Numbered from the stretch's first letter, positions 566 to 25,626 are shown. The stretch: 34,289 nucleotides of DNA from an uncultured Bryobacteraceae bacterium (GCA_955652915.1 CATPCJ010000128.1:1-34289), one strand, 5' to 3'. The notes: generated from the letters alone by a model not told the origin. A program made the numbers and translations.

Positions 566-687
566 GGAACCGCGACCGTAAGGAAGCGGGCCTGGAAATC
601 CTGGAATGCCGGCATTGGCTCCCAGCCGAACCCCCTGGTTCCGTGGTCGTGCCCTGGGAGGGGCACGCTCCCTTACGATCGCGGTTC
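566..687. repeat. MITE-like palindromic element, family A
   Basis: The intergenic stretch 502-774 has no gene. It carries an element with inverted ends: GGAACCGCGACCGTAAGGAA at 566-585 and its near-perfect reverse complement at 664-687 (differences only in GACCG/GATCG and AAGG[A/G]AGCG). A smaller palindrome, GAACCCCCTGGTTC, lies at 628-641. Single arms of the same sequence recur at 18649-18670, 24108-24130 and, inverted, 24313-24326, so this is a dispersed family and not a local hairpin. No transposase is present. Confidence 0.75.
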
Positions 688-3453: not shown

Positions 3454-3565
3454 ACGTGGCGCGGACACTACTAGTATCTGCGGCCTCGCGACTCGTTTCG
3501 AGGCTCTTCCCGCGCGGAGCATCGAGACGATTCTCGATGCCGCAGCCTGAGAGGCCGCGCCACGT
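3454..3565 (+). repeat. MITE-like palindromic element, family B, copy 1
   Basis: A 112-base non-coding element with terminal inverted repeats ACGTGGCGCGG (3454-3464) and CCGCGCCACGT (3555-3565). Internal palindromes include ATCGAGACGATTCTCGAT near 3520-3537 and a GCCTCG/CGAGGC pair near 3483-3504. A second copy lies inverted at 25525-25626, similar over its full length with a few indels. It sits between the lipoprotein and 2Fe-2S genes and has no coding capacity. Confidence 0.8.
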
Positions 3566-3583: not shown

Positions 3584-4003
3584 ATGACAGACGAAAATCG
3601 CGAACGGCTCCAAAAGGTCGCCGGTGATTTGGGCATTGGCCGCCTCAGCCGCCACATTTTCCTGTGCGCGGATCAAACCAATCCCAAATGTGCGCCCCGC
3701 GAAGTCACCAATGTCTCGTGGGACTTTTTGAAGAAGCGTCTGGCGGAGCTTGGACTGGTGCAAGGCGAAGGCTGCGTCTATCGCACGAAAGCGAACTGTC
3801 TCCGCATATGCGAACAAGGACCAATCGCGGTGGTGTATCCGGACGGTGTTTGGTATCACTCCGCCACTCCAGACGTATTGGAACGGATCATTCAGGAACA
3901 CCTGATCGGCGGAAAGCCGGTGGATGATTTTGTATTCGCCGTGAGTCCGCTTGGGGGGCAGGTTGGTAACCTGCCACCGATTGTAAATCGACCCGCAAAA
4001 TGA
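3584..4003 (+). CDS. (2Fe-2S) ferredoxin domain protein, thioredoxin-like fold
   Basis: A 139-residue protein with the thioredoxin-like [2Fe-2S] layout. HIFLCADQTNPKC supplies Cys28 and a nearby cysteine, and TKANCLRICEQGP supplies the later pair. WYHSATPDVLERIIQEHLIGGKPV is the usual family ending. Related domains carry electrons for hydrogenase-like or NuoE-like partners or stand alone as small ferredoxins. No partner is visible here. The last 16 codons and the TGA stop are encoded by dispersed repeat family C, so the tail is probably an acquired extension. The start is ATG 3584. An AGTGGTGCAAGT stretch precedes it without a strong Shine-Dalgarno. Confidence 0.88.
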   Translation: MTDENRERLQKVAGDLGIGRLSRHIFLCADQTNPKCAPREVTNVSWDFLKKRLAELGLVQGEGCVYRTKANCLRICEQGPIAVVYPDGVWYHSATPDVLERIIQEHLIGGKPVDDFVFAVSPLGGQVGNLPPIVNRPAK

Positions 4004-15695: not shown

Positions 15696-15757
15696 CAGCG
15701 CCCAGTATATCCCGACAGCCTGGGGAGACCTGTCCCACCGGAGTTGGACACTCTTAT

Positions 15758-15865
15758 GTGGGGCAGGATGGCATCCTGCCGCGGATTGGCAATCCGCCTG
15801 GTGTTGTATCCGGAATTACTCAGGGGCCGATTGCCAATCGGCGGCGGGTTACCAACCTGCCCCAC
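15758..15865. repeat. Dispersed palindromic element, family C, copy 2
   Basis: A 108-base element with ends GTGGGGCAGG (15758-15767) and CCTGCCCCAC (15856-15865), an exact terminal inverted repeat. It contains nested palindromes: GGCAGGATGGCATCCTGCC, GCGGATTGGCAATCCGC and CCGATTGCCAATCGG. It shares the GGGGCAGG...CC(T)G(C/T)CCCAC plan with 3954-4027. It ends two bases before the stop codon of the rhamnose isomerase gene. Confidence 0.8.
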
Positions 15866-15867
15866 AA

Positions 15868-17679: not shown

Positions 17680-18663
17680 ATGCAAGGAAAGCAACACCTG
17701 GAAGCCGCCCGGCGGGCCATGCTGATCGAGTCCGAAGCCATCACCCGCGCCGCCCATAGGCTCGACGGAAACCTTTCCAGCGCCGTCGACTTAATCGCTT
17801 CCCATCCAGGCAAGCTCGTCGTAACCGGGCTCGGCAAATCGGGCCACATCGCCAGAAAAATTGTTGCGACACTCTGCAGCACTGGCACCCCAGCCGTTTT
17901 CCTGCACGCCGCCGAAGCGTCTCACGGCGATCTCGGAATCTATGCCCCGGGCGACCCCACACTTATGATCTCCAAGAGCGGCAGCACGTCAGAGTTGCTC
18001 GCGATGCTTCCGTTCCTGCGCGATCTTCCTTCAAGTTCAATCGGAATCCTCGGCAATATCGCGTCACCCTTGGCGTCCGAAATGGATGTCGTGCTGGATG
18101 CATCGGTGGAGCGTGAGGCCGATCCGGAAAATGTAGCTCCCACTGCCAGCGCGATAGTGGCCCTGTCGCTCGGCCACGCGCTGGCGATCGCCCTAATGCG
18201 CTCTCGAAATTTCGGCGTGGAAGATTTCGGACGTTTTCATCCCGGCGGCCACTTAGGCCGCAGCGTGCGCCTGACCGTTCGCGAAGTTCTTCACGGCCCA
18301 GACCAAGTGGCCTGGGCGAAGCCCGGCGATTCGTTGAAGCAAGTGGTTATCGCCATGACGCATCGCCCGCTCGGCGCCGCCTGCGTGGTTGGAGCGAACG
18401 ACAAGCTAATGGGATTGATCACCGACGGCGATCTCCGCCGCGCTTTGCAGACTCACGACGACATTCGCGAACTGCGCGCCGCCGACGTCATGACGGCGAG
18501 TCCCACAACCATAGACCCGGAAGCGCGCCTGCTGGATGCGCTGCGCCTAATGGAAGACCGTCCCTCGCAAATCGCCGTCCTACCGGTAGTCGATCCCGTC
18601 ACCGCCCAGTGCGTGGGCCTCCTGCGCCTCCACGACATCTACCGTGCAGAACCGCGACCGTGA
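17680..18663 (+). CDS. kdsD: D-arabinose-5-phosphate isomerase (KpsF/GutQ family)
   Basis: Converts ribulose 5-phosphate to arabinose 5-phosphate, the first step toward Kdo for lipopolysaccharide. The SIS domain has TGLGKSGHIARK (49-60), HAAEASHGDLG (76-86) and SKSGSTSEL (98-106). Two CBS domains follow (about 206-327), with GLITDGDLRRAL in the first. The length of 327 suits the family. Relatives end at or just after LHDIYRA; here EPRP and the stop are added by a family A repeat arm that overlaps the gene end. ATG 17680 has no clear Shine-Dalgarno, but the N-terminus aligns well in style with the family. Confidence 0.93.
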   Translation: MQGKQHLEAARRAMLIESEAITRAAHRLDGNLSSAVDLIASHPGKLVVTGLGKSGHIARKIVATLCSTGTPAVFLHAAEASHGDLGIYAPGDPTLMISKSGSTSELLAMLPFLRDLPSSSIGILGNIASPLASEMDVVLDASVEREADPENVAPTASAIVALSLGHALAIALMRSRNFGVEDFGRFHPGGHLGRSVRLTVREVLHGPDQVAWAKPGDSLKQVVIAMTHRPLGAACVVGANDKLMGLITDGDLRRALQTHDDIRELRAADVMTASPTTIDPEARLLDALRLMEDRPSQIAVLPVVDPVTAQCVGLLRLHDIYRAEPRP

Positions 18664-18670
18664 GGGAGTG
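18649..18670 (+). repeat. Family A repeat arm at the kdsD 3' end
   Basis: GAACCGCGACCGTGAGGGAG and two further bases match the arms at 566 and 24108. In the kdsD frame it reads Glu-Pro-Arg-Pro-stop. No second, inverted arm is seen nearby. Confidence 0.65.
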
Positions 18671-18674
18671 TGAC

Positions 18675-19010
18675 TCACGCCGACTTCTCCAACTGTGCAA
18701 CCAATCCCAACAGCGTCGCTGAAAGCGCCCGTGCCGCCTCCGCCTCCATATCGGCATACACCTGGAACGTTCCAGTCAGCTTGCCGCTCTCCTTCACCTC
18801 AAAGTTCAGCCGAACCCGCCCGCCGTCTGAAGTGGGCCGGCAACTCCCGTCAACGGAAGCAAGGATCAGAGCCCGGCCGCAGCCCGGCAAATCGGATCCG
18901 GGAATTGCGTCCCGAAGCTCATGCGGGAACACCATGGCATTTGGAAATATCCACTTCATCGCGCTCCGAACCTGCTTGCGGCTTACCACTGCTCGTTTGG
19001 AGGATTTCAT
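18675..19010 (-). CDS. Small conserved-looking protein of unknown function
   Basis: A 111-residue protein, ATG 19010. It has a basic N-terminus (MKSSKRAVVSRKQVRSAMKW), a central AIPGSDLPGCGRALI and a C-terminal half LNFEVKESGKLTGTFQVYAD followed by a helix. No signal peptide or membrane segment is seen. The strand is chosen over an overlapping plus-strand frame because the C-terminal half reads as a regular beta-then-helix segment and the plus frame is low-complexity Pro/Ser/Arg. It is divergent from the acyl-ligase gene across 45 bases. I do not recognise a family. Confidence 0.6.
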   Translation of the reverse strand: MKSSKRAVVSRKQVRSAMKWIFPNAMVFPHELRDAIPGSDLPGCGRALILASVDGSCRPTSDGGRVRLNFEVKESGKLTGTFQVYADMEAEAARALSATLLGLVAQLEKSA

Positions 19011-19055
19011 GATTCCTCAAGGTATCAATTCCCGTTCCACTCGATAATGTAAAGG

Positions 19056-21368
19056 ATGCCCCGCGAAACCCTGCTCGACTTCTTCCAGGACTTCGCGGAG
19101 CTGCCCAACGAATTCCTGATCTACGACGACGGCTTCCGCAGCCGCGTCTATCGCTATAACGAAGTAGCCGCCAAAGCGCGAAGCTTTGCCGCTCGACTAC
19201 GCGACGCCGGCATCGGCAAGGACGAGAAGGTCATTTTTTATGGCGAGAATCGCCCCGAGTGGATCATCGCCTGGTGGGGCTGCCTGCTCGAAGGCGTCAT
19301 CGCCGTTCCCATCGACTACCGCTCCTCATCCGAATTCGTCGACCGCATCGACAAGATCGTCAATGCTCAAGCAATCGTCACCGGAGACGAAACCGCGCTC
19401 CCGGATTCTCCCAAAGTCTGGAAATTTACGAGCCTCAATGACGATCCGCCGGGCACTCTCACGTCCCCATCTATTGAGAAGGATCAAGTGGCGGAGATCA
19501 TCTTCACGTCCGGCGCCACGGCCGAGCCTAAAGGCGTCGTAATCACGCACCGCAACATTCTCGCCAACATCGTTCCAGTGGAAGGCGAGGTTCGCAAATA
19601 TCGAAAATACGCCGGACCATTTTCCCCCATCCGATTTCTAAATCTTTTGCCGCTCAGCCACATGTTCGGACAAGCCATGGCGGCGTTTATCCCGCCCATG
19701 CTGCCGGGCGTCGTCGTCTTCATGCGCGGATTCAACCCCAGGGAAATTCTGCGCCAGATCCGCACGCGCCGGATCTCGGTGCTGGTTTCGGTGCCGCAAA
19801 TTCTCGAGATTCTGCGGGAGTATTTGCTCCAAATGTTCCCGGACCTAAAAAACATACAGCCGGGCAGCATGCACTGGATGCGCCGCTGGTGGCGATACCG
19901 TAAAGTACACCGCCTGTTCGGTTGGAAGTTTTGGAGCTTCATTGTTGGCGCGGCGCCGCTGCCCCCCAACCTCGAATCGTTCTTTTCGGAACTGGGTTTC
20001 CTGGTAATCCAGGGCTATGGACTCACCGAAACCGCTCCCATCGTTACGCTGAACCACCCGTTCCACGCGCGCAAAGGGACGGTCGGCAAACCCATCGGCG
20101 GCGTCGAAGTGAAGATCGCGGACGACGGCGAAATCCTGGTGCGCGGTCCGAACGTTACGACCGGCTATTATCAACGTCCGGAAGAAACAGCCAAAGCCTT
20201 CGAGGACGGATGGTTCCACACCGGCGACATCGGAGTGTTCCAGGAAAACGGTGAGCTGGCAATTCTCGGCCGCAAGAAAGAAATGATCGTGACGCCCGAA
20301 GGACTCAACGTATTTCCGGAAGATGTTGAAGGCGTGCTCAATCGTCTTCCCGGCGTCCGTGATTCGGCGATGATCGGAACCGACCGCGTACAAGCCGTGC
20401 TGATTCTGAATCCGGGCATCGATCCTGGGGACATCGTCCGCGAAGCCAACGCGCAGCTTGCCGACTACCAGCGGATTCGCAGCGTCTCAATCTGGCCATA
20501 CGCCGAATTTCCGCGCACCGAAGGAACCGGAAAACTCAAACGTCACGAGATCGCGAAAGGCACTCCGCCGCCGGCCAAGCAAAACAAATTCGATATTAAT
20601 GTCCCGCTCGAATCCCTGACCTCGCTGGAGCGCGTCGAGCGGATGGTCGCATTGGGTCAAGATGAATCGGAAATCACCGGCGTGCCCAATCCGCCGTCGC
20701 CAGCCGATTTTCCCAGGTGGAATAGAAGCGCACTCGCGCGCGCGAGCCGGTGCATTCTCCAATCAATATTTATACTCCCCTTAATGCGCATCTTCGCCCA
20801 CATCCGAAGCGAAGGTTTGGAAAACCTCCAGAACATCGAGCCTCCGGTGATCTTTGCATCCAACCACCAGAGCTACATGGACGCGCCCGCCATTCTGGCC
20901 GCGCTGTCTCCACGTTGGCGCTCCCGAGTGGCTCCCGCAATGCGAAAAGAATTTTTCGAGATGCATTTCCACGGGCGAAGTTTCAGCAACAGCTTGAACT
21001 ACTACCTGTCATCCTGGCTCTTCAACGCCTTTCCCATCCCTCAACGCGAGCCGGGCGCGCTCGAGACGCTTCGCTACATGGGCGAGATGTCCAACGAAAA
21101 ATGGTGTGTTCTAATCTTTCCCGAAGGCAAGATGACGCGCGATGGTGAGATCGCTCCGTTTCAACCCGGCGTGGGAATGATCGCATCGAGACTGGCTATC
21201 CCCGTGATCCCACTCCGCATTGAAGGACTCAATCGTGTCCTGCATCCGACCTGGAGAATGGCCCGCATGGGCAAAGTCCGAATCGCGTTCGGCGCGCCTC
21301 TTCACCTGAAGGGTGACGATTACCTCGCACAGGCTAAGCAAGTAGAAGACGCCGTCAAGGCGCTATGA
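19056..21368 (+). CDS. Fused AMP-dependent acyl ligase and PlsC-type acyltransferase
   Basis: A 770-residue two-domain protein. Residues 1-505 form an ANL-superfamily fatty acyl-CoA or acyl-ACP ligase: P-loop TSGATAEPKG (151-160), YGLTETAP (321-328), GWFHTGDIG (385-393), and catalytic-lysine motif PRTEGTGKLKR with Lys493. Residues 560-770 form a PlsC acyltransferase with NHQSYMD (603-609, the NHx4D motif) and FPEG (688-691). It should activate fatty acids and pass them to lysophospholipid, like E. coli Aas with the domains in reverse order. The linker holds LESLTSLERVERMVAL, resembling part of an acyl carrier domain but too short. ATG 19056 sits directly after AAAGG. Confidence 0.9.
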   Translation: MPRETLLDFFQDFAELPNEFLIYDDGFRSRVYRYNEVAAKARSFAARLRDAGIGKDEKVIFYGENRPEWIIAWWGCLLEGVIAVPIDYRSSSEFVDRIDKIVNAQAIVTGDETALPDSPKVWKFTSLNDDPPGTLTSPSIEKDQVAEIIFTSGATAEPKGVVITHRNILANIVPVEGEVRKYRKYAGPFSPIRFLNLLPLSHMFGQAMAAFIPPMLPGVVVFMRGFNPREILRQIRTRRISVLVSVPQILEILREYLLQMFPDLKNIQPGSMHWMRRWWRYRKVHRLFGWKFWSFIVGAAPLPPNLESFFSELGFLVIQGYGLTETAPIVTLNHPFHARKGTVGKPIGGVEVKIADDGEILVRGPNVTTGYYQRPEETAKAFEDGWFHTGDIGVFQENGELAILGRKKEMIVTPEGLNVFPEDVEGVLNRLPGVRDSAMIGTDRVQAVLILNPGIDPGDIVREANAQLADYQRIRSVSIWPYAEFPRTEGTGKLKRHEIAKGTPPPAKQNKFDINVPLESLTSLERVERMVALGQDESEITGVPNPPSPADFPRWNRSALARASRCILQSIFILPLMRIFAHIRSEGLENLQNIEPPVIFASNHQSYMDAPAILAALSPRWRSRVAPAMRKEFFEMHFHGRSFSNSLNYYLSSWLFNAFPIPQREPGALETLRYMGEMSNEKWCVLIFPEGKMTRDGEIAPFQPGVGMIASRLAIPVIPLRIEGLNRVLHPTWRMARMGKVRIAFGAPLHLKGDDYLAQAKQVEDAVKAL

Positions 21369-21375
21369 TGTCCAC

Positions 21376-21756
21376 ATGCGCCTCTCCATCGTCCTGTTCG
21401 CCCTCATCGCGGCCATCACCCTTTTCGCCGCGGGACTAGCCGGAACATATAAAGGAACCTGGTCGGGACAAGGCAACGGCGACTTCACCATCACCCTAAC
21501 CCAGGCCGGCGACGACTGGAAAGCGGACATCACCTTCACTTTCGGCGGCGAAACGGTGAAGACAAAAGTCACGTCGCTTAAGGTCGAAGGCTCGAAGTTA
21601 AAGGCCAGCTACCAATTCGATTTGCAAGGCACAGTTCTGGAGTCAACCATAACAGGCGAGCTAAACGGAACCACCTTGGCAGGCGACTATCATACGAAAG
21701 CCGTAGCCGACGGTTCAGCGGTAGACGATGGCACCTGGAAAACAACGGGGCAATAA
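21376..21756 (+). CDS. Small secreted beta-rich protein (paralog of 30737)
   Basis: A 126-residue protein with a Sec signal (MRLSIVLFALIAAITLFAAG, cleavage near 19-22). The mature domain of alternating strands, GTYKGTWSGQGNGDFTITL through TTLAGDY, ends in DDGTWKTTG. The plan (opening G-x-W, a central K-L-x-x-x-Y or K-L-T-G-T-Y strand, closing G-x-W) is shared with the protein at 30737. Function unknown. It lies seven bases after the acyl-ligase gene and may be cotranscribed with it. Confidence 0.75.
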   Translation: MRLSIVLFALIAAITLFAAGLAGTYKGTWSGQGNGDFTITLTQAGDDWKADITFTFGGETVKTKVTSLKVEGSKLKASYQFDLQGTVLESTITGELNGTTLAGDYHTKAVADGSAVDDGTWKTTGQ

Positions 21757-21852
21757 GCCGGCAGGGTCATTTTTCACGCGAACTCCGGAAGCGCAGTACT
21801 CCGTTGCGGATAGATCGCCCCCACAATCGACAAATCGGCACAAGCTAAAATA

Positions 21853-22236
21853 GTGGATGCAATGAGCGACCAGCAAATTCCCCTTCCACCAGCCACTTTC
21901 GAGTTCCTCGTCGTCTCGCTAAAGACCCAAACCGAGTTTCATCTCGGCTGGCTTCATTTCGGAGATGCGGAGGATCGGCCCGAACCCGATTTTCGAATCG
22001 CGCGCCACAATGTCGACTTGCTGGCGATGCTCCAGGAGAAGACTCGCGGCAACTGCACGCAGGAAGAACAGCGTTTGCTCGACAATGCCTTGACCGAACT
22101 GCGCTTTCGTTTCGTCCAGGTCATGGAGCAACACCACAAGAAAGCCGCCGAATCCCCTGCCGCGAATGCCGATGCCGGCACTCCCACGAGCGCCGATTCC
22201 GGCACCCCTCCGGCCGAAGGGCAGGCTAGCGAATAG
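21853..22236 (+). CDS. DUF1844 family protein
   Basis: A 127-residue cytoplasmic protein. The conserved block TFEFLVVSLKTQTEFHLG, then FRIARHNVDLLAMLQEKTRG and EEQRLLDNALTELRFRFVQV, is the DUF1844 pattern. The C-terminal 30 residues are a low-complexity Ala/Pro/Ser/Thr tail. The family is widespread in Acidobacteriota and other groups, with no assigned function. ATG 21853 or the in-frame ATG 21862 may be used; neither has a strong Shine-Dalgarno. Confidence 0.88.
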   Translation: MDAMSDQQIPLPPATFEFLVVSLKTQTEFHLGWLHFGDAEDRPEPDFRIARHNVDLLAMLQEKTRGNCTQEEQRLLDNALTELRFRFVQVMEQHHKKAAESPAANADAGTPTSADSGTPPAEGQASE

Positions 22237-22270
22237 TGTGCTGTCCCGGCTAATTGTTGACTCACGCTAC

Positions 22271-22381
22271 GTGGGGCAGTCTATCCAGGCTACAGACCCT
22301 CTTTCCAGCGCGTCTAGCCGTCTGAAATCGGGCTGTGGGCAGGATTGCCGGCCCCCCAAAAACTTACGAGGGGCGGGACAC
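22271..22381. repeat. Possible diverged family C element
   Basis: Starts GTGGGGCAG and ends GGCGGGACAC, with GC-rich partial palindromes between. The ends resemble family C, but the centre does not match the other copies, so membership is uncertain. It fills most of the 148-base gap before the hydrolase gene. Confidence 0.35.
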
Positions 22382-22384
22382 TAA

Positions 22385-23173
22385 ATGGCCGTTGAATCCC
22401 TGAGCATCACGGTGCTGGGTTCCGGCACCAGCGTCGGGGTTCCCACCATCGGCTGTCATTGCGCGGTGTGCAGTTCCGGCGATCCGCGCGACAAGCGGCT
22501 TCGGCCCTCGATTTACATCAAATACGCGGATCGCGGCGTCATCATCGACACTACCCCGGATTTCCGGCAGCAGGTCCTGCGCGCGCGGATCGAAAGAGTA
22601 GACGGTATTTTCTTCACGCACTCGCACGCCGACCACGTCATGGGCCTCGACGATGTGCGGCCTTTCAACTTCAAGCAAGGCGGCGTCATTCCCATCTATG
22701 GATCGGCGGATACGATCGAAAATATCCGGCACGCTTTTCGCTACATCTTCGATAGCCGTTTTTCGGAATCCTCCGTCCCCCGCCTGGTAACCAACGTCTT
22801 TGACCGCGCGCCCATCGACTTTTTCGGATTGGAATTCACGCCCATCCGCTTGTGGCACGGCAAGGGTATTGTTTATGGTTTCCGCTTTGGCTCGGCGGCT
22901 TATCTAACCGATCACAGCGATATCCCCGACGAGTCGATGGAACAGCTACGCGATCTGGAGGTGCTGTTCCTCGACGCATTGCGGCATCGGCCCCATCCTA
23001 CGCATTCCACCGTGGAACGCTCCTTGCGATCCGTGGAAAAACTAGCGCCGCGGCGAGCCTTCTTTACGCACATCTGTCACGATCTGCCGCACGCGCGAAC
23101 CGAAGCCGATTTGCCGCCGCACGTGCGATTGGCCTACGACGGGCTAGAGCTTACCGTCGGGGTTTCAAAGTGA
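22385..23173 (+). CDS. MBL-fold metal-dependent hydrolase, PhnP-like
   Basis: A 262-residue metallo-beta-lactamase-fold hydrolase. HSHADH at 79-84 supplies the dinuclear metal site, with TDHSD and a late HICHDL histidine region. The N-terminus has LGSGTSVGVPTIGCHCAVC, including Cys24, Cys26 and Cys29, like the structural zinc loop of PhnP, the phosphoribosyl cyclic phosphate phosphodiesterase. No phosphonate genes are nearby, so the substrate is open. Its stop overlaps the GTG start of ribF (GTGA, 23170-23173), so the two are coupled. Confidence 0.9.
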   Translation: MAVESLSITVLGSGTSVGVPTIGCHCAVCSSGDPRDKRLRPSIYIKYADRGVIIDTTPDFRQQVLRARIERVDGIFFTHSHADHVMGLDDVRPFNFKQGGVIPIYGSADTIENIRHAFRYIFDSRFSESSVPRLVTNVFDRAPIDFFGLEFTPIRLWHGKGIVYGFRFGSAAYLTDHSDIPDESMEQLRDLEVLFLDALRHRPHPTHSTVERSLRSVEKLAPRRAFFTHICHDLPHARTEADLPPHVRLAYDGLELTVGVSK

Positions 23174-24123
23174 TCCACCGCGGCCTCGACGAAACGCCCG
23201 GCGGCTTCGGGCCGTGCGCCATAACCATCGGTAATTTCGACGGCGTCCACAACGGGCATCGGGAAATCTTGCGCCGAATCGTCAGCATTGCGCGCGAGCG
23301 TGGCTGGAAATCGGCCGTCCTGACTTTCGACCCGCATCCGACCAAGCTGGTGGCTCCAGCGCGCGCGCCGCGTCTGCTGACGACGCCAGAGCAGCGCGCC
23401 CGGCTGATCCAGGAGCTAGGCATCGACGAGATCCTGATTCTGCCCTTCACGGCGGCGATCGCCAAGCTGACGCCCGAAGAGTTCGTGAGCGGGATTCTGG
23501 CGGGCAAACTTCAAGCGCGAGCGGTGTTGATTGGCGACAATTTTCGCTTTGGAAATCGGGCCGCCGGGAACGCGGCCACGCTGGCCAGGCTGGGACGGAA
23601 ATATGGTTTCGACGTGGAGATTACTGCTACCATCTCCTGGCGCAACCGGATTATCTCCAGCAGCGAAATCAGAGCATTGATCGTAACCGGCGATGTCGCG
23701 CGCGCCTGCCGCATGCTCGGGCGGCCATACACGCTAGAGGGCGTGGTGGTGCCGGGAGAAGGAGTTGGTTCCAAGCAAACGGTGCCTACCCTAAATCTGG
23801 ATACACAAGCCGAGGTGCTGCCGAAGACCGGCGTTTATGTGACGCGGACGCACGATAAAGCGCGATCGCGCCAATGGCCCTCCATCACGAATGTTGGATA
23901 TCGGCCGACCTTCAATGGCCATCGGCTGACCATCGAGACCTACTTGTTAGCACCGCTCCAGGGGGACTCGCCGCCGGAGATCGCGGTCGAATTTTTGCGC
24001 TTTGTTCGCGACGAGCGCAAGTTCGACGATGCAGTGGCGCTCAAGGCGCAAATTCTTAGAGACGTAGCGCGGGCCCAGGTTTATTTCCGAAGGCTGCCCG
24101 CGCCTATGGAACCGCGACCGTAA
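23170..24123 (+). CDS. ribF: Bifunctional riboflavin kinase / FAD synthetase
   Basis: Makes FMN and then FAD from riboflavin in the cytoplasm. The N-terminal adenylyltransferase domain has TIGNFDGVHNGH (19-30, with the HxGH-type nucleotide site), LTFDPHPTKL and GDNFRFGNRAAGN. The C-terminal kinase domain has VPTLNL (usually PTANL) and NVGYRPTFNGHRLTIETYLL. The start is GTG 23170, overlapping the hydrolase stop; a longer open frame to 22852 only runs through that gene. 317 residues, normal for the family. The last residues MEPRP and the TAA come from a family A repeat arm. Confidence 0.95.
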   Translation: MIHRGLDETPGGFGPCAITIGNFDGVHNGHREILRRIVSIARERGWKSAVLTFDPHPTKLVAPARAPRLLTTPEQRARLIQELGIDEILILPFTAAIAKLTPEEFVSGILAGKLQARAVLIGDNFRFGNRAAGNAATLARLGRKYGFDVEITATISWRNRIISSSEIRALIVTGDVARACRMLGRPYTLEGVVVPGEGVGSKQTVPTLNLDTQAEVLPKTGVYVTRTHDKARSRQWPSITNVGYRPTFNGHRLTIETYLLAPLQGDSPPEIAVEFLRFVRDERKFDDAVALKAQILRDVARAQVYFRRLPAPMEPRP

Positions 24124-24300
24124 GGGAGTGCCCATTGGCCTGCGGCCCACCAAAGGTGATGAAGACGCGGCGGGCCGCTTTCGTGCAATCAATAATTTGC
24201 ACCGCGTCTTCAACGGAGCGATCCAGGTGAAAATCGAGCGCTCCCTTGGCGAGGGGCTGCGGTCAATCCCAACTTGTCAGCGGAGAAGGTGACGGGAGGA
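24103..24300 (-). pseudogene. Possible broken gene fragment between ribF and the aldolase
   Basis: On the minus strand, the frame LAKGALDFHLDRSVEDAVQI continues as IDCTKAARRVFITFGGPQANG and ends HSLTVAVP-stop, the last eight residues from the family A arm read in reverse. It has no usable start. About 24250-24270 the frame appears to shift to one reading PPVTFSADKLGLTAAP. It looks like protein but I recognise no family. It is flanked by family A arms at 24108-24130 and 24313-24326. Confidence 0.3.
24108..24130 (+). repeat. Family A repeat arm at the ribF 3' end
   Basis: GGAACCGCGACCGTAAGGGA and three further bases, nearly identical to the arm at 566 and reading Glu-Pro-Arg-Pro-stop in the ribF frame. 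An inverted partial arm, ACGGTCGCGGTTCT, lies at 24313-24326 before the aldolase. Confidence 0.7.
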
Positions 24301-24376
24301 CGCCTGTTGCCAACGGTCGCGGTTCTGTGCCGAGGGCTGCCCTGATGCGCGACAATCGATTTAGACAGGAGACCGA

Positions 24377-25524: not shown

Positions 25525-25626
25525 ACGTGGCGCGGCCTTCAGGCTGCCGCATCGAGACTCGTCTCGATGCTCCGGAAAAAAGCCTCGATACGAATCTCGA
25601 GGCCGCGACGTGTGTCCGCGCCATGT
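25525..25626 (-). repeat. MITE-like palindromic element, family B, copy 2
   Basis: A 102-base element, inverted relative to the copy at 3454. The ends are ACGTGGCGCGG (25525-25535) and CCGCGCCATGT (25616-25626, one mismatch). It carries ATCGAGACTCGTCTCGAT inside and the GCCTCGATACGAATCTCGAGGC palindrome in place of the copy 1 hairpin. It lies between the convergent aldolase and symporter genes; 25394-25524 beside it shows no gene. Confidence 0.8.

Follow-up and report, generated by a model that had tools for sequence, protein, structure and literature searches.

A dispersed palindromic repeat, probably a REP of the class 3 type, supplies gene stop codons from its hairpin loop in an uncultured Bryobacteraceae bacterium

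The kdsD and ribF genes, which are unrelated, end in the same four residues, Glu-Pro-Arg-Pro, in the window (the whole 34,289-nt stretch of DNA that was analysed), and a single dispersed element lies across both stop codons in the same frame. Taking the evidence together, we regard it as very probable that this element is a class-3-type REP spread by an HuH/Y1 transposase, that it supplies stop codons through the TNA of its loop, and that the EPRP tail is a by-product. The tail is not confined to these two genes: the original prediction of a common tail holds, and was understated, as at least 12 unrelated genes share it in 683 kb of gene calls.

RESULTS AND DISCUSSION

A common element at the ends of kdsD and ribF

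The exact 13-mer GAACCGCGACCGT is present at 18649-18661, at the end of kdsD, and at 24109-24121, at the end of ribF. On reading the sequence, the former gene (17680-18663, plus strand) closes with GAA CCG CGA CCG TGA, and the latter (23170-24123, plus strand) with GAA CCG CGA CCG TAA. The copy at kdsD comprises a CAGA foot (18647-18650) and a hairpin (18652-18670) with a GTGA loop (18660-18663), such that the stop codon TGA (18661-18663) is itself the TNA of the loop; likewise, the ribF stop codon TAA (24121-24123) is the loop TNA of its own copy. In ribF, the codons ahead of EPRP are also derived from the repeat, given that an upstream GCC(T/C)ATG is common to the copy at 560-586 and to one on contig C142. 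Other features of the window are listed in Table 1, where, as in the text, C-termini are written up to the stop codon.

Table 1. Repeat copies and associated genes in the window
Feature	Position	Strand	Basis and remarks
REP copy in spacer, left arm of inverted pair	567..589	+	Pattern, repeat comparison
REP copy in same spacer, right arm of inverted pair, one mismatch in the 13-mer	665..687	-	Pattern, repeat comparison
kdsD-like gene, 327 aa, C-terminus YRAEPRP	17680..18663	+	ORF; Pfam SIS and CBS domains; same-genus orthologues end YRAELK or YRADLE
REP copy over kdsD stop	18647..18671	+	Sequence, consensus and foot, consensus fold
Convergent small ORF, 111 aa, weak coding score	18675..19010	-	ORF and gene call; stop ~4 nt past the kdsD REP copy
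ribF (FAD synthetase and riboflavin kinase), 317 aa, C-terminus LPAPMEPRP	23170..24123	+	Pfam FAD_syn and Flavokinase; 31 relatives without EPRP
REP copy over ribF stop, foot variant TGGA	24107..24131	+	Sequence, pattern, consensus
Long repeat variant (REP plus ~90 nt), 94-98% identical to at least 8 other copies	24109..24223	+	blastn
Copy of a second ~90-nt repeat family, adjoining, ending in a GAACCGCGACCGT arm (24313-24325, minus strand)	24239..24327	-	blastn, pattern

Copy number and distribution

Across the 7.09 Mb of the genome (506 contigs), GAACCGCGACCGT occurs exactly 107 times (60 on the plus strand and 47 on the minus), as compared with 0.4 occurrences expected from base composition, and the reversed-pattern control gives zero and one matches on the respective strands. 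Allowing up to two mismatches, CCGCGACCGTNAGGNAGCG has 175 copies genome-wide, against 10 for its control. Four of the exact 13-mers fall within the window (starting at 567, 18649 and 24109 on the plus strand, and at 24313 on the minus), together with a one-mismatch copy (675-687, minus strand). The family differs in abundance between relatives: CCGCGACCGTNAGGGAGCG has 36 exact matches in this genome versus 0-9 in those of the same genus, and there are up to 237 exact copies in a relative from another genus (G024). Most copies are intergenic, and some lie within the last few codons of genes.

Other repeats are also present. The second ~90-nt family, which ends in a GAACCGCGACCGT arm, is found at more than 20 places in this genome, with copies that are 75-88% identical. 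A further dispersed palindromic family, of the GGCAGGATGGCATCCTGCC / GGCAGGTTGGTAACCTGCC type, occupies positions 3951-3994, 15757-15798 and 15824-15867 of the window, and an additional inverted repeat pair, GCATCGAGACGATTCTCGATGC-like and 94% complementary over 36 nt, is located at 3480-3550 and 25539-25606.

Anatomy of the repeat and its assignment to class 3

The consensus reads (W)CA-GAACCGCGACCGTNAGGRAGYG, with C at position -2 in 84% of copies and GA in 98%. The consensus is predicted to fold into the hairpin CCGC-GA-CC-(GTNA)-GG-GA-GCGG (-11 kcal/mol for 23 nt), that is, a short stem interrupted by a tandem-GA internal loop and capped by a GTNA loop, with the foot C-n-G-A at its base. 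This foot is conserved in 133/167, 78/102 and 91/94 distinct copies in three genomes, and the GT[AG]G foot of the GTAG REPs (RAYT class 2) is absent from the base of the hairpin. Pairing is corroborated by compensatory changes: the 9-16 pair switches from C-G to G-C in 11, 7 and 12 distinct copies of the three genomes, and the 5-20 pair varies between G-C, G-U and A-U. Neighbouring copies are inverted in 41 of 52 pairs, mostly 5-35 nt apart, an organization of the BIME/REPIN kind. A search of Rfam with the window found no match to a curated RNA family.

The family is linked to a transposase gene. Contig C149 encodes a 151-residue HuH protein, with HVH and YVIREQ (Y----Q) motifs, between two inverted copies of the repeat, which lie 5 nt past the stop codon and 24 nt before the start codon of the gene; the same arrangement is seen in G023, a second relative from another genus, and in other relatives. 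The match of this protein to Y1_Tnp is weak (22.4 bits versus a cut-off of 23), and those to the IS200 and REP_Tyr_transpos models are also below threshold. Relatives of the protein are encoded by 26 of 101 related genomes, with Y----Q in 25 of the 26 examined; a repeat copy is situated within 700 nt at 20 of these 26 loci, and an inverted copy follows the transposase stop codon by 0-18 nt at 11 of them. Moreover, the transposase is present in 16 of the 21 genomes with at least 10 copies versus 10 of the 80 others (p = 4e-8), leaving five copy-rich genomes where it was undetected. The other five Y1 transposase genes of this genome have no copy nearby. We infer that the C149 protein mobilizes the repeat. 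At one locus of G024 (L440, contig C49), the gene for a relative of the class 3 transposase seems to have its own 3' end in a repeat copy, giving the C-terminus TGPRP.

Class 3 TnpA-Y1 systems are described as having a CnGA foot and a Y----Q motif, with ~600 repeat copies in Solibacter usitatus Ellin6076 (PMC6006769). The present system resembles that account in its CnGA foot, its hairpin, its high copy number, its repeat-flanked HuH Y----Q protein and its occurrence in the Acidobacteriota. The repeat is, therefore, in all likelihood a REP of the class 3 TnpA-Y1 (CnGA-foot) type, an assignment matched on these described features. It departs from the published accounts of class 3 in supplying the stop codons of genes; our literature search found no report of class 3 CnGA repeats doing so.

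The loop stop and the base that sets its strand

A six-frame table of the repeat shows that, with A or G as N, the loop TNA reads as a stop codon on the forward strand (TAA or TGA), and that C or T as N places the stop on the reverse strand (TGA or TAA). The pattern TNA is preserved on reverse complementation, which gives every intact copy one loop stop, on a single strand; the tails encoded are (S/T)EPRP in the forward direction and AP in the reverse. We compared this genome (G000) with G023 and G024, and the strand switches with the loop base. A and G predominate at N in G000 and G024, and these two genomes have 14 forward stops (offset -15, giving EPRP) and one reverse stop, the single G000 gene in this reverse register having the C-terminus MNAC. 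In G023, 79 of 111 copies have C at N; this genome shows no EPRP endings, three read-throughs to EPRPSGSG and four reverse genes ending AP. The contrast between 14 forward and 1 reverse in the A/G-rich genomes, and 0 and 4 in the C-rich one, is significant (Fisher p = 0.0013). A literature search on the read-through peptide RPSGSG and on overlaps of the MIRU type yielded nothing useful.

These data bear on whether EPRP is a functional C-terminal tag that selection maintains, perhaps for stability or localization. Although the identical four residues terminate 12 unrelated proteins, those proteins have no function in common, their orthologues lack EPRP, and the tail varies with the strand and the loop base (AP, EPRPSGSG, RDRKGA, SLTVAVP and PLPDGRGS). 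Above all, the C-dominated G023 yields AP and EPRPSGSG but no EPRP ending, indicating that EPRP is incidental, and this rules out the tag as the main reading; we consider a tag highly improbable in any form. Hence, nothing marks out EPRP as special: AP and MNAC arise according to the strand, and five genes use the first GA of the repeat instead.

Gene ends rewritten relative to orthologues

For statistics on gene ends, 683 kb around the copies were fetched, and genes were called by a dicodon model for which this DNA also served as the training set; 173 copies were classified at up to four mismatches, against one for the reversed control. The source is a fragmented metagenome-assembled genome, and the gene-end statistics vary with our gene caller and with the read-through cases counted. 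Within this sample (about 172 copies), a copy supplies the EPRP ending of 12 gene calls: kdsD, ribF, a recJ-like gene, and genes for a PIG-L deacetylase, a histidine kinase, a radical SAM/SPASM protein, a kdsA-like protein with a DAHP-synthase-family domain, a glucuronyl-esterase-like protein and four others.

None of the 49 orthologues of RibF and KdsD ends in EPRP (0/31 RibF relatives and 0/18 readable KdsD relatives); orthologues free of the repeat do not have this ending. The probability that two genes came to share four C-terminal residues by chance is practically nil; it was already refuted by the 107 copies where 0.4 were expected, by the 12 genes and by these 49 orthologues. The original prediction that relatives end earlier is only approximately right: it stands for KdsD, where same-genus proteins stop about two residues sooner (YRAELK or YRADLE), but not for RibF, whose C-termini are variable and in some relatives of equal or greater length.

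Comparisons with same-genus relatives show how the C-termini have changed. The PIG-L deacetylase ends FPMLTEPRP here versus FPMLR in relatives, the histidine kinase FTLLSEPRP versus FTMQV, the radical SAM protein LVQIELSEPRP versus LVQIDRK, KdsA IHALSEPRP versus IHGLEL, and KdsD YRAEPRP versus YRAELK; RecJ ends KDVRPPG in relatives, and the version here is ~14 residues longer. In five further genes, the stop codon TGA is made from a T and the first GA of the repeat, with no EPRP; among genes terminated at this first GA, SecD and RibA retain an unchanged protein length. From the native ends seen in relatives, the repeat is no more than a few codons away from the native stop in most of the cases checked; the genes on contigs C167 and C409 were left out of this comparison, their matches being distant or unrelated. 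Divergence is too high for clean empty sites to be recognized in same-genus relatives, and no insertion event was directly observed.

One copy (C266:17532-17568; L107) ends two convergent genes, an EPRP-terminated histidine kinase and an Fe-S/cysteine-rich-domain protein with the C-terminus SLTVVVPKAV. In same-genus relatives, including G002 and G003, a different, GTGGCGCACGCACTCGTGCGTGCCGCG-like palindromic repeat directly follows the orthologue stop codons of several of these genes (L149, L150, L356, L361, L383 and L384). The idea that such gene ends are hairpin hot spots in relatives was rejected: the folding energy over the 60 nt past each of 46 orthologue stops was not below that of 115 controls (p = 0.37).

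Register bias: selection or targeting

The original prediction also held that an excess of copies should carry their stop codon in frame, and such an excess is indeed present. Of the 66 gene ends that extend into a copy, 20 use the loop-stop register when tails of any length are counted (1/6 expected, p = 0.004), as do 20 of the 31 events with short tails (p = 3e-9). Both counts vary with our gene caller and assume independence among copies, and the smaller excess (20/66) is the safer. The suggestion that the element inserts, or is kept, at gene 3' ends was thus upheld as regards the stop register, which is over-represented there; the general preference for 3' ends is weak. Tandem, convergent and divergent spacers are filled approximately by length in G000 (p = 0.19) and G024 (p = 0.67), with no clear skew, some skew away from divergent spacers is seen in G023 (p = 0.007), and EPRP endings come from only 12 of about 172 copies. 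Given the spacer occupancy in G000 and G024, we make no claim of 3'-end targeting.

An active preference of the transposase for stop codons or gene 3' ends, for instance because TGA resembles the cleavage foot CnGA, would fit the position of the breakpoints in several genes, only a few codons from the native stop, the preserved lengths of SecD and RibA, where TGA is made at the first GA of the repeat, and the crowding of reverse-oriented copies 0-30 nt after stop codons in G023. Against it, spacers are filled approximately by length in the two genomes cited above, numerous copies are located in divergent spacers or within long-gene calls, and selection would yield identical breakpoints, as insertions further upstream would remove more of the protein. 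On balance, targeting seems unlikely. The simplest reading is that insertion occurs wherever it is tolerated and that gene-spoiling copies are lost, which accounts for the pattern without targeting; we, therefore, infer selection to be the cause of the register bias.

On our main reading, the REP most likely spread as single-stranded DNA through the action of an HuH/Y1 transposase, with some copies falling in the last few codons of genes and replacing the native end. A copy in the stop register would halt translation immediately, adding only a few residues, and be tolerated, whereas copies in other registers would lengthen or spoil the protein and probably be lost more often. Because the stop register would be tolerated and the others lost, the shared EPRP tail is best seen as a by-product of insertion and purifying selection, and not as a tag. 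A combination, in which the loop TNA is kept for tolerable gene-end insertions and the class 3 transposase also favours stop sites, strikes us as quite doubtful; if it were true, the element would be adapted to living on gene 3' ends.

Relation to other palindromic elements

Stop-donating REPs have already been published for another class: the termini of GTAG-tagged REPs often provide a TAG stop codon to flanking ORFs, and some of these elements are located at the ends of coding regions and others inside ORFs (PMC3733652). Those RAYT-associated elements share with ours short palindromes, inverted pairs, proximity to gene 3' ends and stop donation; they differ in having the stop in the terminal GTAG motif, whereas here it lies in the loop, on one strand only and set by one base, and in having GTAG in place of the CnGA foot (PMC3733652). 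The Rickettsia palindromic elements RPE-4 and RPE-6 are CGTC REPs (PMC3733652). Rickettsia elements are similarly translated within unrelated proteins; however, they are inserted within ORFs and have no CnGA foot, whereas the present repeat supplies the stop. As far as our search extended, three points are new: the description of this acidobacterial repeat at the ends of genes, the placement of the stop codon within the loop, and the dependence of its strand on one base.

Ribosome stalling has been reported in Escherichia coli for REPs that lie 15 nt or less from a stop codon (as cited in PMC12306157). By analogy, the loop stop could be regulatory, lowering or coupling translation, and the location of the TNA in a hairpin loop would suit such a role. 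The E. coli hairpin likewise adjoins the stop codon but comes after it, whereas here the 5' half of the hairpin is translated and the stop lies in the loop. The ribosome opens the stem before reaching the stop, and copies are absent at these genes in same-genus relatives; we view a regulatory function as unlikely.

Implications

The orthologue comparisons illustrate how a REP rewrites protein C-termini, with its orientation and one loop base setting the tail. EPRP, AP, RDRKGA or PLPDGRGS tails in predicted proteins of this phylum are best taken as probably derived from the repeat. Furthermore, an acidobacterial REP family tied to class 3 HuH transposase genes in more than 12 genomes makes the little-studied class 3 testable.
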